A stretch of DNA of 64,000 nucleotides. It comes from Thermomicrobium sp. 4228-Ro. GTDB lineage: Bacteria; Chloroflexota; Chloroflexia; Thermomicrobiales; Thermomicrobiaceae. Both the position numbers and the translations under genes were made by a program. Numbering within the stretch: position 1 is the first letter of the stretch; each line of letters opens with the position of its first letter. Of the stretch, positions 42,411 to 52,042 are shown one piece after another. The notes beneath the pieces are model-generated. The model was not told the origin of the DNA, made no database searches, and was given only the letters and a program-made list of their open reading frames with translations. Location of the stretch: the NCBI RefSeq assembly GCF_026241205.1, contig NZ_JAPFQM010000001.1, forward strand, positions 1,922,001 to 1,986,000. The letters run 5' to 3'.

Positions 42411-43727
42411 CTAACGAAGAAGCGATTCGCCGCTCAAGAGCCGTCCGATATCGACGAAGGCGATGGCGAACATGAGCAGGAGCAAGATGGCGAAGCCGAC
42501 GAGGTGGATCAAGCCTTCCTTCTCCGGTGGAATGCGCCGTCCGCGGATAGCTTCGACGAGAACGAAGAACAAGCGACCGCCATCGAGGGCTGGGAAGGGG
42601 ATAAGGTTGAGAATCGCCAGGTTGATCGAGAGCAACGCGGTGAGATGGGCGAGCGTGACCCAGACCGGTTCCGGACTGAGCTGGAGAATCTCCGACGTAA
42701 GTTGGCCCATACCGATCGGCCCTGCGATATCGCTCAGCGAGGCTTCGCCGCGCACGAGCATGAGGAGACCTTGGATCATCTGTGCGAGGAGGAGGGCTGT
42801 TTGTCTCGCCGCCTCGATCGGAACGTGCCACAGCGGGACACGACTCATGACGAGGGTCGGACGCAACGTGAGGCCGGTGTTGGGAATCCCGCTGTCAGGT
42901 GCTGGTGGGGTCGCGAAGGCCAACGTGACTGTTTGTCCAGCCCGTTCGACGACGAGCTCGACGGTGCGCCCAGCGTACGTCTGGAGCGCGAGGCTATAGG
43001 CGCCAGCATCTTCGATCGGGTAGTCGCCGATGCGGACGAGCCGATCACCTGGCTGCAGGCCTGCCTGAGCAGCAGCGGAACCAGGTTCGACTGACTCGAC
43101 GACGAGGCGAGCAGCTGGTTCGATGAGCACGCGGATACCAGTACGACCTTGTCCTGGCGGCGGACTTTCTCGCGGCACGACGATGGTATCGATCCGCTCA
43201 GTGCCACGCTGGATCGTCACTCGGAGCGGTCGACCGGCGTTACGTTCCGTAGCCTGAATCAGCCGATCGGCGTCATGAATCGGCTGGCCATCCACGGCGA
43301 CGAGCCGGTCACCCGGTTGCCAGCCAGCGGCGGCGGCGGGCGAGTCAGGGACGACCTCGGCGACATAGAGGTGAAAGCGTGGCTCGCCGCGAAAGCCGAC
43401 GAGCATTATCATCAGCAGGAACGCAACGACGAGATTCATGAAGGCGCCAGCACCGAAAAAGACGGCACGCTGCCAGCGTGGCTTGTTCTGGAGGCTATCC
43501 GGACCCTCGGTCGCTTGATCTTCTCCGACAACCCGAACGAACCCGCCCAGTGGGATGGCATTGATCGAATACAGCACACCTCCGCGCCGGATACCGAAGA
43601 GTCGCGGGGGGAGTCCGATGCCGAACTCGAGAACGCGGATGCCGAACAGTCGGGCAGCCAAGAAGTGACCGAGTTCGTGAGCCAAGATCAGAACGGCGAG
43701 GATGGGGACGATATAGAGCGCTTGCAT
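42411..43727 (-). CDS. rseP: Site-2-type membrane metalloprotease RseP
   Basis: A 438-residue M50 protease. The zinc motif HELGH lies in the first membrane helix (about residues 17-21) and the third ligand in NLIPFPALDGGR near the C-terminus. Two PDZ-like domains lie between (VVPDSPAAAAGWQPGDRLVAVDG and VEPGSAAAQAGLQPGDRLVRIGD). It cuts membrane proteins such as anti-sigma factors. The ATG at 43727 has GGAAGG 8 nt upstream. The ECF/anti-sigma pair at 49.5-51.5 kb could be a target, which is only a suggestion. Confidence 0.94.
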   Translation of the reverse strand: MQALYIVPILAVLILAHELGHFLAARLFGIRVLEFGIGLPPRLFGIRRGGVLYSINAIPLGGFVRVVGEDQATEGPDSLQNKPRWQRAVFFGAGAFMNLVVAFLLMIMLVGFRGEPRFHLYVAEVVPDSPAAAAGWQPGDRLVAVDGQPIHDADRLIQATERNAGRPLRVTIQRGTERIDTIVVPRESPPPGQGRTGIRVLIEPAARLVVESVEPGSAAAQAGLQPGDRLVRIGDYPIEDAGAYSLALQTYAGRTVELVVERAGQTVTLAFATPPAPDSGIPNTGLTLRPTLVMSRVPLWHVPIEAARQTALLLAQMIQGLLMLVRGEASLSDIAGPIGMGQLTSEILQLSPEPVWVTLAHLTALLSINLAILNLIPFPALDGGRLFFVLVEAIRGRRIPPEKEGLIHLVGFAILLLLMFAIAFVDIGRLLSGESLLR

Positions 43728-43773
43728 CGGTCTTGCCTTCCACGGCCGGAATGACGGCCGGACCAACTAACTG

Positions 43774-48563: not shown

Positions 48564-49478
48564 ATGTGGATTCTCGAGTTGGTGGGAATCGTCCTGATCG
48601 CCGCTCTCCTGCGGTATGCGGCGGAATCAGCGCAGCGGTCGGTCTGGGCTCGCCGTGGGCTCGATGTCGTCGTATTGGGCGGTGGAAGCCTGCTTCTCGG
48701 GGTTGGCCTTCTCGGTTGGTACCGCAGTATGCACGCACTCCTCGTGTCGGGGGTACTGGGCGGTGTCCTCGTCCTGCTCGCGCGGTGGTATCCGTATCGC
48801 ACCCGCATCGCGCGGTGGATACCGATCGATCCCGACTCAGTGCCTGATGCGTTCGGTCTGGCTCTTCTGCAGGGGTTGATCGGCGTTCTCGCTGGGGCAC
48901 TCCTTCTCTCCAGCGCCTTGCCGGAGTTCGAAATTCGGCGCGAGCAGCTGATCGCACAGGGGATCGGCGAGGTAGCGTTAGCGTTCGTTTTGGTCGGCTT
49001 CCCGTTCTCGCGTGACTTTCGCGATGCAGTGCATCGCCTCGGGCTCACGCTGCCAGCACGACGCGAGGTGGTGAGCGCTGGGCTCTTCACTGTAGCGCTT
49101 TTCCTCGTATCCCTGACGAGTGGAGCGCTGGCGCATATCGTGCAGCCAGAAGTGGTCGCTCGTATCGAAGAACGGATGATCCCGCTGACCAGCGAGTTCG
49201 GGGCACCAGGCTGGGCGCTGCTTCTGGGAATTCTCGCCGGAATCGGTGAGGAACTCTTGTTTCGCGGTGCGATCCAACCACGCTACGGGCTCGGATTGAC
49301 GGCGGTGCTGTTCACGCTCGTTCACGTTCAATACGAACTCTCGGTCGTGACACTCGGGGTCGCAGGGCTCGCGATCCTCCTGGGATTGGAAAGACGCTGG
49401 TTCGGTACGACGGCCTGTATTCTGACGCATGCGCTCTACGATATGGTGGCGGTTCTGCTGCAAGCTGCGTCCCGTTGA
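48564..49478 (+). CDS. CPBP-family membrane metalloprotease
   Basis: A 304-residue protein with about eight membrane segments. The CPBP (Abi) motifs are EELLFRGAIQPR (EExxxR, about residues 229-240), FTLVHVQY (second His) and HALYDMVA near the C-terminus. Members act in prenyl-protein processing, bacteriocin immunity or regulation; the role here is unknown. AAGGAGG precedes ATG. The gene runs towards the anti-sigma gene on the other strand, 8 bases apart. Confidence 0.88.
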   Translation: MWILELVGIVLIAALLRYAAESAQRSVWARRGLDVVVLGGGSLLLGVGLLGWYRSMHALLVSGVLGGVLVLLARWYPYRTRIARWIPIDPDSVPDAFGLALLQGLIGVLAGALLLSSALPEFEIRREQLIAQGIGEVALAFVLVGFPFSRDFRDAVHRLGLTLPARREVVSAGLFTVALFLVSLTSGALAHIVQPEVVARIEERMIPLTSEFGAPGWALLLGILAGIGEELLFRGAIQPRYGLGLTAVLFTLVHVQYELSVVTLGVAGLAILLGLERRWFGTTACILTHALYDMVAVLLQAASR

Positions 49479-49486
49479 GCGGAGGG

Positions 49487-50950
49487 CTACTGGTTCACCG
49501 GGAACTGCTGCCACGTGCCGTCCGCGAAGAGTGCATAGACAAAACCGCGGTCACTCAGGATGAGCGTACCGTGCTCGAATTCCTGGATGCGTGCGCCGGT
49601 GGACATGACGTGAACGTCACCTTCGGTCGCGTAACCGAGCGACGGAGCCAGCGCCTTTTCCTCCCAGACCTGACCGAACGCCCCGCCCGGTGCCCACAGG
49701 TTGGGCTCCACGGAGCGAAATTCGAGAGGCGGATCGACCGGTTGTGGCTCGGGAACACTGGACCAGGTGCCAGTGGCATCGAGGATGTAGATGTGCAAGG
49801 TGTCGAACCGCTCCAGCATCATTCCGCGCTGGAAGGCCAGTTCTGCAGCGTTAACAGTGAAAGCGGGTGAAACTGGCTGACCGAGTCGCTTTTGGATCGC
49901 CTCGTCAGCCCAATAGACGCGTGCGAACGCACCCGTGACCGGAATCGGTTCAGGCGTGCCCGGTGTCGGAGACGGCACGACCGTCGGACTCGGTGTCGCC
50001 TCCGGCGCGGTCGAGGACGGCAGCGGCGTCGGCGTCGGAACCGGAATCGGCGTCGGTGATGGCGTTGGTGGGGGCGGTGGAGCGGGAATCTGCGGCTGAT
50101 CGGAAGATCGGTTCTGAGAAGGCTCGGGAACGATCGGCGCTACCGTGGGCACTGCCTGCGCGGGTGCCCCAGCCGGAACGGCAGTGGGAGATGATGCAGG
50201 CTCAGCGACATTCTCCCTCGGCGTCGCCATCGGTTTCGGCGACGGAGTCGGAGCGGGGGTAGGTGTTTCCTGGACATGAGCGACAGCGCTTGTCGTCTGG
50301 AAGGTCAAGACGAACGGAGTGCCGAGCGGGTGGCCCCAGCGATCTTGTGCATCGGGTAGGATCGCGATGCGATACACCGTATCAGGCAGCAACAGAACGC
50401 GGCGTTCGGCGTCGGCCCCGATAATCAGGGTTGTCCCATTCCAGCTGATCGGTAGGCGCTGTCGTTCACCGGGTGGCGAAATGCGCAAATTGTTCAGTAC
50501 TGATTCTTCGTTCATCGGTTTCGAGAAGGTGATTTCGACTGGTTGGTAGATGGGCCACCGCTGCGTCGAGGAGGTCGCTGGGTTCGAAGCGACGACGCGC
50601 GGTGGTTGGGTGCGTTGGAATCCGATACTGGCCGTGACCAGGGCGATGAGCAGAACGATCATGCCGAGCGCACTCGTGGCCAGCGCGAGCCGTGTTCGCG
50701 TCCGGGGGGTACTCTTCCGTTCTTCGACTAACCGCTTCCACACGTCACGCTGCAAGGAGCGCGGTGGTGGTGGCGATGGGGGCAGACGCCGGAGCTGCTC
50801 GCGCAGTCGTTGGTATTCATGGAGGCGGGCTCGGCAGTCTTCACACACTGCGAGGTGCGCGAGCAAACGCTGCCGCTCCTCGTCCGACAGATCGCCGTCG
50901 AGGTAGGCTGACAAGAGCGGCCGGTAGGAACGACAGCGCAGCGAGCTCAT
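49487..50950 (-). CDS. Anti-sigma factor with zinc-finger, membrane helix and large external domain
   Basis: A 487-residue protein. Residues 1-50 hold a zf-HC2-type anti-sigma zinc finger (HLAVCEDC). A membrane helix lies at about 87-110. Outside, a Big_5/SbsA-like Ig fold spans about 115-225 (NPATSS...ITFSKPMNEESVL). Then comes a Pro/Thr-rich linker (about 227-340). Residues 342-487 contain two related segments, each like FxxVW...LG...G..F..G.m....iY...DGTW. ATG overlaps the sigma stop (ATGA). It likely holds the ECF sigma factor at the membrane and senses an outside signal. Confidence 0.88.
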   Translation of the reverse strand: MSSLRCRSYRPLLSAYLDGDLSDEERQRLLAHLAVCEDCRARLHEYQRLREQLRRLPPSPPPPRSLQRDVWKRLVEERKSTPRTRTRLALATSALGMIVLLIALVTASIGFQRTQPPRVVASNPATSSTQRWPIYQPVEITFSKPMNEESVLNNLRISPPGERQRLPISWNGTTLIIGADAERRVLLLPDTVYRIAILPDAQDRWGHPLGTPFVLTFQTTSAVAHVQETPTPAPTPSPKPMATPRENVAEPASSPTAVPAGAPAQAVPTVAPIVPEPSQNRSSDQPQIPAPPPPPTPSPTPIPVPTPTPLPSSTAPEATPSPTVVPSPTPGTPEPIPVTGAFARVYWADEAIQKRLGQPVSPAFTVNAAELAFQRGMMLERFDTLHIYILDATGTWSSVPEPQPVDPPLEFRSVEPNLWAPGGAFGQVWEEKALAPSLGYATEGDVHVMSTGARIQEFEHGTLILSDRGFVYALFADGTWQQFPVNQ

Positions 50951-51543
50951 CCGGATGTCGATGCCTCCATGTCGTGGTACAGGCGACGGAACTCTTCCCG
51001 CGCACGGAACAGCAGAGACTTCGCTGCCGAGCGGGAAATGTTGAGCATGTCAGCGATCTCGTCGATCGAATACCCCTCGTATTCCCGGAGGATGAGAACT
51101 GCTCGGTAGCGCGGTTGCAGCCGCTGCAGGATGCGCTCGACGAGGTCCTGGGTTTCGGTCTGGAGGAGTGCTCGTTCCGGATCGGCAGCTCCCGCTGCGC
51201 GCAGGGAGTTGCCGTGCCAGGGATTGAGCTGGTCGAGGCGGAGCCAACGCAGGCGATTCCGGCGTCGAAGCGTATCCAAACAGACGTTGGCTGCGATGCG
51301 GCGCAACCACGCCCCGATATGCAAATCGTCAGTCGTTTGCGGCAGCGCCTTGTAGGCCCGGATGAAACATTCTTGGGTGAGATCACTCGCATCGTCGGCA
51401 TTGCCGACCATCCGGTAGACAAACTGGTAGATCGTGCGTTCGTATTTTTGATATAGGAGCGCGAACGCTTCCTCGTCGCCCGCCTTGGCGCGGACGACAC
51501 AGCGTAGCTCATCTACCGCAGACAGGGCGACTGAGCCCGACAT
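50947..51543 (-). CDS. ECF-type RNA polymerase sigma factor
   Basis: A 198-residue sigma-70-family regulator. Region 2 is EEAFALLYQKYERTIYQFVYRMVGNADDASDLTQECFIRAYKAL, and region 4 holds LQPRYRAVLILREYEGYSIDEIADMLNISRSAAKSLLFRAREEFR. Region 3 is missing, as in ECF factors. GGAGGAGAG lies just before ATG 51543. Its stop overlaps the anti-sigma start, so the pair is translationally coupled. Confidence 0.95.
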   Translation of the reverse strand: MSGSVALSAVDELRCVVRAKAGDEEAFALLYQKYERTIYQFVYRMVGNADDASDLTQECFIRAYKALPQTTDDLHIGAWLRRIAANVCLDTLRRRNRLRWLRLDQLNPWHGNSLRAAGAADPERALLQTETQDLVERILQRLQPRYRAVLILREYEGYSIDEIADMLNISRSAAKSLLFRAREEFRRLYHDMEASTSG

Positions 51544-51621: not shown

Positions 51622-51650
51622 ATCGTACACTGTTCCTTGCCGGATGTCAA
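51622..51650 (-). promoter_or_regulatory. Promoter of the ECF sigma/anti-sigma operon
   Basis: On the minus strand TTGACA (51645-51650) and TACGAT (51622-51627) are separated by exactly 17 nt. The start is expected near 51615, giving a leader of about 70 nt. It is a housekeeping-type promoter, so the operon may be expressed at a basal level; an ECF-type autoregulated promoter was not recognised. Confidence 0.8.
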
Positions 51651-52042
51651 TTCGGTGTTCCTGCGGCGATCGTTGTGCGACACGGAGGGCGCGGAGCTTT
51701 CGAGGCCTGGTAAATGCCCTCGGCTTCACGGTGCCGTCCTGAGGCAGCGTACGGGAGACCGTGAAAGCTCGGGCGTGCATCGACCACATAGACGCGTGTT
51801 CACGTGTGGATGGGATAAAGGCAAGCGTGCCGAGCTCGTCACTCGTTCCGGCGGTGTGGGGAGCGCCTCGCACGCATGATCGGGGAAGTCGTTCGTGTGC
51901 GTAGCCAGGTGAGAACGGGCTCGGAGGGACGTCGCTGGCGCGTCATAGCGAGGGCTCCTGGCTTCATGATCTCGTTTATACTCAGTGCACCACGTGCCTC
52001 ATGGTCTCTGGGTTCTGTATAGAGGGTTTCAGGAGAAGATCG
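51651..52042. other. Intergenic region before the methyltransferase/reductase fusion gene
   Basis: About 390 bases with no credible ORF. TATACT sits at about 51976 without a good -35. I looked for SAM, SAH and cobalamin riboswitch motifs, which might control such a gene, and did not find a convincing one. A TGTTCACGTGTGG at about 51796 resembles half of a parS site but is too weak to call. Confidence 0.5.

Follow-up and report, generated by a model that had tools for sequence, protein, structure and literature searches.

Chloroflexota is a phylum with unusual envelopes and, to our knowledge, envelope sensing by its members has hardly been studied. A locus of Thermomicrobium sp. 4228-Ro raises the question of what a putative anti-sigma factor of such an organism might detect outside the cell, and by means of which domain. 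We analyzed the locus within its window, the whole 64,000-nucleotide stretch of DNA (contig NZ_JAPFQM010000001.1, positions 1,922,001 to 1,986,000). An earlier note had drawn attention to nucleotides 49490-49927, describing two related blocks of about 60 residues that resemble LGFP repeats, stand outside the cell behind an Ig-like domain and a Pro/Thr-rich linker, and might serve surface sensing that frees an ECF sigma factor.

Organization of the sigma/anti-sigma locus

The relevant genes, domains and promoter are as follows.

51622..51650, minus strand: sigma-70-type promoter (TTGACA-N17-TACGAT), conserved in the genus and preceding the sigma/anti-sigma gene pair
50947..51543, minus strand: ECF sigma factor gene, 198 aa, with Sigma70_r2 and r4_2 (Pfam); ATG start at 51543
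49487..50950, minus strand: putative anti-sigma factor gene, 487 aa; open reading frame with orthologs, its ATG start overlapping the stop of the sigma gene
50831..50935, minus strand: residues 6-40, zf-HC2 / ZAS anti-sigma domain (Pfam PF13490, E 4.8e-13) with motif HLAVCEDC, predicted to face the cytoplasm
50609..50695, minus strand: residues 86-114, single transmembrane segment (19-residue hydropathy, peak 2.46)
50294..50611, minus strand: residues 114-219, Big_5 bacterial Ig-like domain (Pfam PF13205, E 1.2e-10, 42.5 bits against a cut-off of 23.6)
49946..50293, minus strand: residues 220-335, Pro/Thr/Ser-rich linker, read from the translation
49757..49930, minus strand: residues 341-398, LGFP-related repeat 1 (HMM limits, ortholog profiles)
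49496..49681, minus strand: residues 424-485 (about), LGFP-related repeat 2 (ortholog profiles; the HMM limits are residues 424-483, at 49502-49681), with a weak Pfam LGFP match at residues 438-466
48564..49478, plus strand: CPBP (Rce1-like) glutamic intramembrane protease gene (Pfam PF02517, E 6.7e-10; motif GEELLFRG), a candidate protease for the anti-sigma factor
42411..43766, minus strand: RseP-type protease gene, a candidate site-2 protease (TIGR00054, 237 bits against a cut-off of 147.55; PF02163)

The minus strand of the stretch singled out earlier codes for residues 342-487 of the 487-residue open reading frame, and the blocks follow the Ig-like domain and the Pro/Thr linker in the order that had been described. 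With a zf-HC2 domain bearing HxxxCxxC, a membrane helix and an adjoining sigma gene, the protein has the features of ZAS-type (class I) anti-sigma factors. It is probably a ZAS anti-sigma factor, predicted to hold its sigma factor, a stress transcription factor, inactive in the cell. RsiW-like members of the class likewise combine a zf-HC2 HxxxCxxC domain and one membrane helix with a gene located directly after that of the ECF sigma factor; in contrast to them, the protein described here has a large ectodomain composed of the Ig-like domain, the linker and the LGFP-related pair, and its gene pair has a housekeeping-type rather than an ECF-type promoter.

Orthologs of the sigma factor align from the Met of the ATG at 51543, which is therefore the start rather than the GTG at 51873, and the ortholog of the sigma gene adjoins the anti-sigma gene across the order and beyond. 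Across the genus, the region preceding the sigma gene showed no ECF-type promoter box; in a sister genus the promoter is still recognizable as TTGACA-N17-TAGGCT. Autoregulation is common among ECF systems. Because the promoter looks housekeeping and no such box was seen, autoregulation finds no support here.

Orthologs of the anti-sigma factor are present across the whole genus, and others were found in the family and in some members of the order. Among the 26 that were aligned, the mean share of the majority residue was 0.60 in each repeat, 0.62 in the zinc-finger domain, 0.63 in the Ig-like domain and 0.43 in the 21-residue spacer. The repeats are thus about as conserved as the zinc-finger and Ig-like domains, and the spacer between them is less so. 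The genome itself has one copy of the pair.

Homology of the two repeats and their relation to LGFP

Repeat 1 has the layout FARVYW...RLGQP...FQRG...IYIL.ATGTW and repeat 2 the layout FGQVW...SLGYA...FEHG...VYALFADGTW, such that the F-x-x-V start, LG segment, F-x-x-G block and GTW end noticed earlier are present in both. When block 1 and block 2 were compared as single sequences, BLASTP returned no match, so their homology is visible in profiles only. Comparison of block-1 and block-2 profiles built from the 26 ortholog loci by hhalign aligned 56 columns with a probability of 98.7% and a score of 75.7, against a maximum of 22.4 and a mean of 10.5 in 100 column shuffles of one profile. The proposed kinship of the two blocks is borne out by this difference, and a chance origin is ruled out.

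A repeat profile (A1) of 33 rows, including zero LGFP sequences, was searched against all 177,635 PDB sequences. The top match was the Corynebacterium protein MytA/PS1 (6swz, E 1.6e-16; 6sx4, E 3.8e-14), and the next protein had an E value of 0.16. All five repeats of the C-terminal stalk of C. glutamicum MytA matched the profile in the same register (best single repeat, E 0.0019). An hhalign comparison of a family profile of 112 segments with 84 mostly actinobacterial LGFP repeats gave a probability of 96.8% and a score of 44.3 over 42 columns; as controls, 150 shuffles scored no higher than 16.0, and reversing the profile gave 6.1.

Pfam LGFP (PF08310) matched residues 438-466 of the anti-sigma factor with 13.0 bits (E 0.14), below the cut-off of 22 bits, and matched 8 of the 33 A1 repeats singly at E <=0.01. 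Among other carriers of the pair, both kinases and anti-sigma factors, several scored 24.4-40.9 bits and so exceeded the same cut-off. A phmmer search of PDB sequences with the C-terminus yielded chance matches only. Two scans of viral contigs found no true relative, tblastn of phage and plasmid records found no relative, and a weak PHROG endolysin match (E 0.19) carries no weight as evidence.

The second half of the repeat is where the families part. The end strand reads IYVLxxDGTW where LGFP has tGAHxVxG. At the aromatic position of the LGFP IYW motif, 52 of 62 readable LGFP repeats have W, Y or F, whereas most Thermomicrobiales copies are non-aromatic there, with W in 4 of 52 repeats, and the Thermomicrobium residue is mostly E, L or otherwise non-aromatic. 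Both second-half hallmarks, tGAHxVxG and the W of IYW, are absent from the copy in this anti-sigma factor. Since the Pfam cut-off is missed and the end strand and aromatic position differ, we do not file the repeats as formal members of LGFP. The likeness claimed in the earlier note holds as distant kinship: judged from sequence profiles, the repeats are distant relatives of LGFP. Compared with the LGFP stalk of MytA (6swz, 6sx4), they are alike in length, in register (LGxP turn and FxxG, with a predicted helix and predicted beta strands), in tandem layout and in their predicted extracytoplasmic site. They differ in the altered end strand and often lost aromatic position, in number and spacing (two copies with a spacer of 20-27 residues, as opposed to five in a row), and in being part of a signaling protein, MytA being an enzyme.

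The repeat pair on other Chloroflexota proteins

A profile search found the repeat in 50 of the 301 Chloroflexota genomes drawn. Carriers whose cytoplasmic part was examined belong to two signaling classes: Ser/Thr kinases (L067, L071, L076, L083 and L140 by Pfam, others by sequence reading) and further ZAS anti-sigma factors (L059, L062, L068, L070, L082, L137, L144, L147 and L150). Additional carriers are secreted or lipoprotein-like proteins without a recognized signaling domain. All 19 signaling carriers examined have exactly one hydrophobic segment, and it separates the cytoplasmic domain from the repeats, which supports an external position of the repeats in the Thermomicrobium protein too. 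Together with the one segment (residues 86-114) found by hydropathy in the Thermomicrobium protein, the placement of the pair behind the single helix of the kinases agrees with the extracytoplasmic location proposed earlier.

When repeats from other carriers were scored against the Thermomicrobiales block-1 and block-2 profiles, 35 of 40 were assigned to the block that their position would predict, the 40 not being independent in that several kinases are near-identical orthologs. The simplest account is therefore that the ordered pair moved as a unit from one class of protein to another. Its presence in the same order on kinases and ZAS anti-sigma factors makes it a portable extracytoplasmic module of two signaling classes, and suggests a shared, interchangeable surface sensor. 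PASTA-domain Ser/Thr kinases consist of a kinase, a single helix and tandem small wall-facing domains. The pair-bearing kinases share this plan of kinase, single helix and tandem small domains, but the domain family is different and the pair serves anti-sigma factors as well.

Anti-sigma factors with sensor ectodomains are already known, as are LGFP repeats. A limited literature search turned up no paper that places LGFP together with an anti-sigma factor, and an LGFP-related pair on an anti-sigma factor and common to kinases was not found in the literature searched, although earlier notice is possible. The relationship connects a C-terminus that is conserved in Thermomicrobiales but otherwise lacks annotation with a repeat family whose structure is solved and whose role in wall binding is known, and it places one input module on transmembrane signaling proteins of two classes. 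Chloroflexota thereby gain a concrete candidate for an envelope sensor, in the form of a domain amenable to expression and binding assays.

Two proteins of other Chloroflexota have the pair twice, in the order r1-r2-r1-r2. One (L059:361-2340) has a ZAS domain, and the other (L138:1322-3208) has a hydrophobic stretch followed by an Ig-like domain.

Proposed envelope contact and proteolytic release

Two intramembrane proteases are encoded nearby. The RseP gene lies 6 kb from the anti-sigma gene in the same window, and a site-2 protease is thus present in the genome. The CPBP gene is convergent with the anti-sigma gene and is its neighbor in 23 of 26 ortholog loci, which represent more than one family; its EExxxR motif is kept wherever the match reaches the motif. 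ParB, glycyl-tRNA synthetase and a methyltransferase-like gene belong to the same, generally conserved block. Because the convergent adjacency occurs inside such a block, coupling of CPBP to cleavage of the anti-sigma factor is a suggestion only.

We propose a model that, taken as a whole, we regard as moderately probable. Within the cytoplasm, the N-terminal zinc-finger domain would sequester the ECF sigma factor of the same gene pair, and the single helix would span the membrane, with the Ig-like domain and flexible Pro/Thr linker carrying the LGFP-related pair outside. There the pair would contact an envelope component, whether a glycan, a wall protein or a lipid-linked precursor. Altered contact would open the anti-sigma factor to cleavage at site 1, and either RseP or the neighboring CPBP, as the intramembrane protease, would then free the sigma factor. 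Chloroflexota would use the pair as a portable input module, also fitted to Ser/Thr kinases. ECF sigma factors freed by anti-sigma proteolysis provide precedent, including receptors such as RsiV, an anti-sigma factor and lysozyme receptor that is cut by signal peptidase and RasP (PMC5014341). The proposed logic is alike, in that an ectodomain would meet an envelope-related ligand and regulated intramembrane proteolysis would follow, but the ectodomain described here is unrelated to that of RsiV. More generally, domains located C-terminal to class I anti-sigma domains are viewed as perceiving the stimulus (PMC7406223).

MytA is reported to bind arabinogalactan-peptidoglycan through its LGFP repeats (PMC11299179). 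In the wall of T. roseum, peptidoglycan is reportedly scarce, galactosamine replaces glucosamine and protein predominates (PMC2615216), so that the ligand known for LGFP is not a safe assumption here. The pair may have another ligand than MytA does, and that ligand could be a protein. As an extension of the model that we consider possible but short of probable, the ordered LGFP-related pair could be a Chloroflexota receptor for one common envelope ligand, with an ECF switch or a transmembrane Ser/Thr kinase as the readout depending on lineage.

The pair might instead be a tether that fixes the anti-sigma factor to the wall, where it gauges position or mechanical state, leaving the sensing to the Ig-like domain or the site-1 protease. 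Wall binding and stability is the one LGFP function that has been tested (PMC11299179), the pair is preceded by a long Pro/Thr linker in this protein and in several kinases, and secreted proteins without a recognized signaling domain carry the pair as well. The Ig-like domain, however, is undetected on kinases and on several anti-sigma factors that keep the pair, which argues that the pair is the common part of these signaling architectures, and we consider a tether rather doubtful.

A third reading, which we judge unlikely, has the pair bind a protein partner, such as a sensor or surface-layer protein, that masks the cleavage site with no glycan bound, in the manner by which MucB masks the cleavage site of MucA. 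Replacement of the LGFP aromatic position in the Thermomicrobium lineage would fit such a role, as would the protein-dominated wall of T. roseum, but the conserved neighbors (CPBP, ParB, glycyl-tRNA synthetase and the methyltransferase-like gene) include no obvious partner.

Structure prediction bears on our preferred reading of the repeats as LGFP relatives. The published LGFP fold is a helix plus a three- or four-stranded antiparallel sheet (PMC11299179). From an 8-row alignment, AlphaFold modeled repeat 2 as a helix (7-19) followed by five strands, with low confidence (pLDDT 63.2); the whole 152-residue C-terminus with four orthologs reached a pLDDT of 39.8. With the low-confidence repeat 2 model, Foldseek ranked 6swz 11th (E 0.52, probability 0.96, rmsd 1.4 over 35 columns) with unrelated folds equal, and VIA-align to 6sx4 gave a Z of 5.3 and an rmsd of 1.9 over 48 aligned residues with unrelated folds tied. 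We reject as highly improbable the idea that the LGFP likeness is convergence among small beta repeats that are rich in aromatic residues and share an LG turn: single sequences do fall below the Pfam cut-off and the model matches unrelated folds as well as 6swz, but MytA/PS1 is the sole confident match among the PDB sequences, shuffled and reversed profiles fail against LGFP, and intermediates on kinases and anti-sigma factors exceed the LGFP cut-off.

LGFP-like sequence was also observed in other Chloroflexota proteins. Four secreted proteins (L141, L145, L152 and L154) begin with a region CFxETGxCIxGxxRxYWExNGG...FGxPI...QWFER and have the repeats near the C-terminus; their N-terminal part also looks LGFP-like by eye, and Pfam LGFP scored 21.2 bits on the repeat region of L141. 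In one Chloroflexota genus, L047-L051 match LGFP above the Pfam cut-off over the first 32-35 profile positions only, and are perhaps another offshoot of LGFP.
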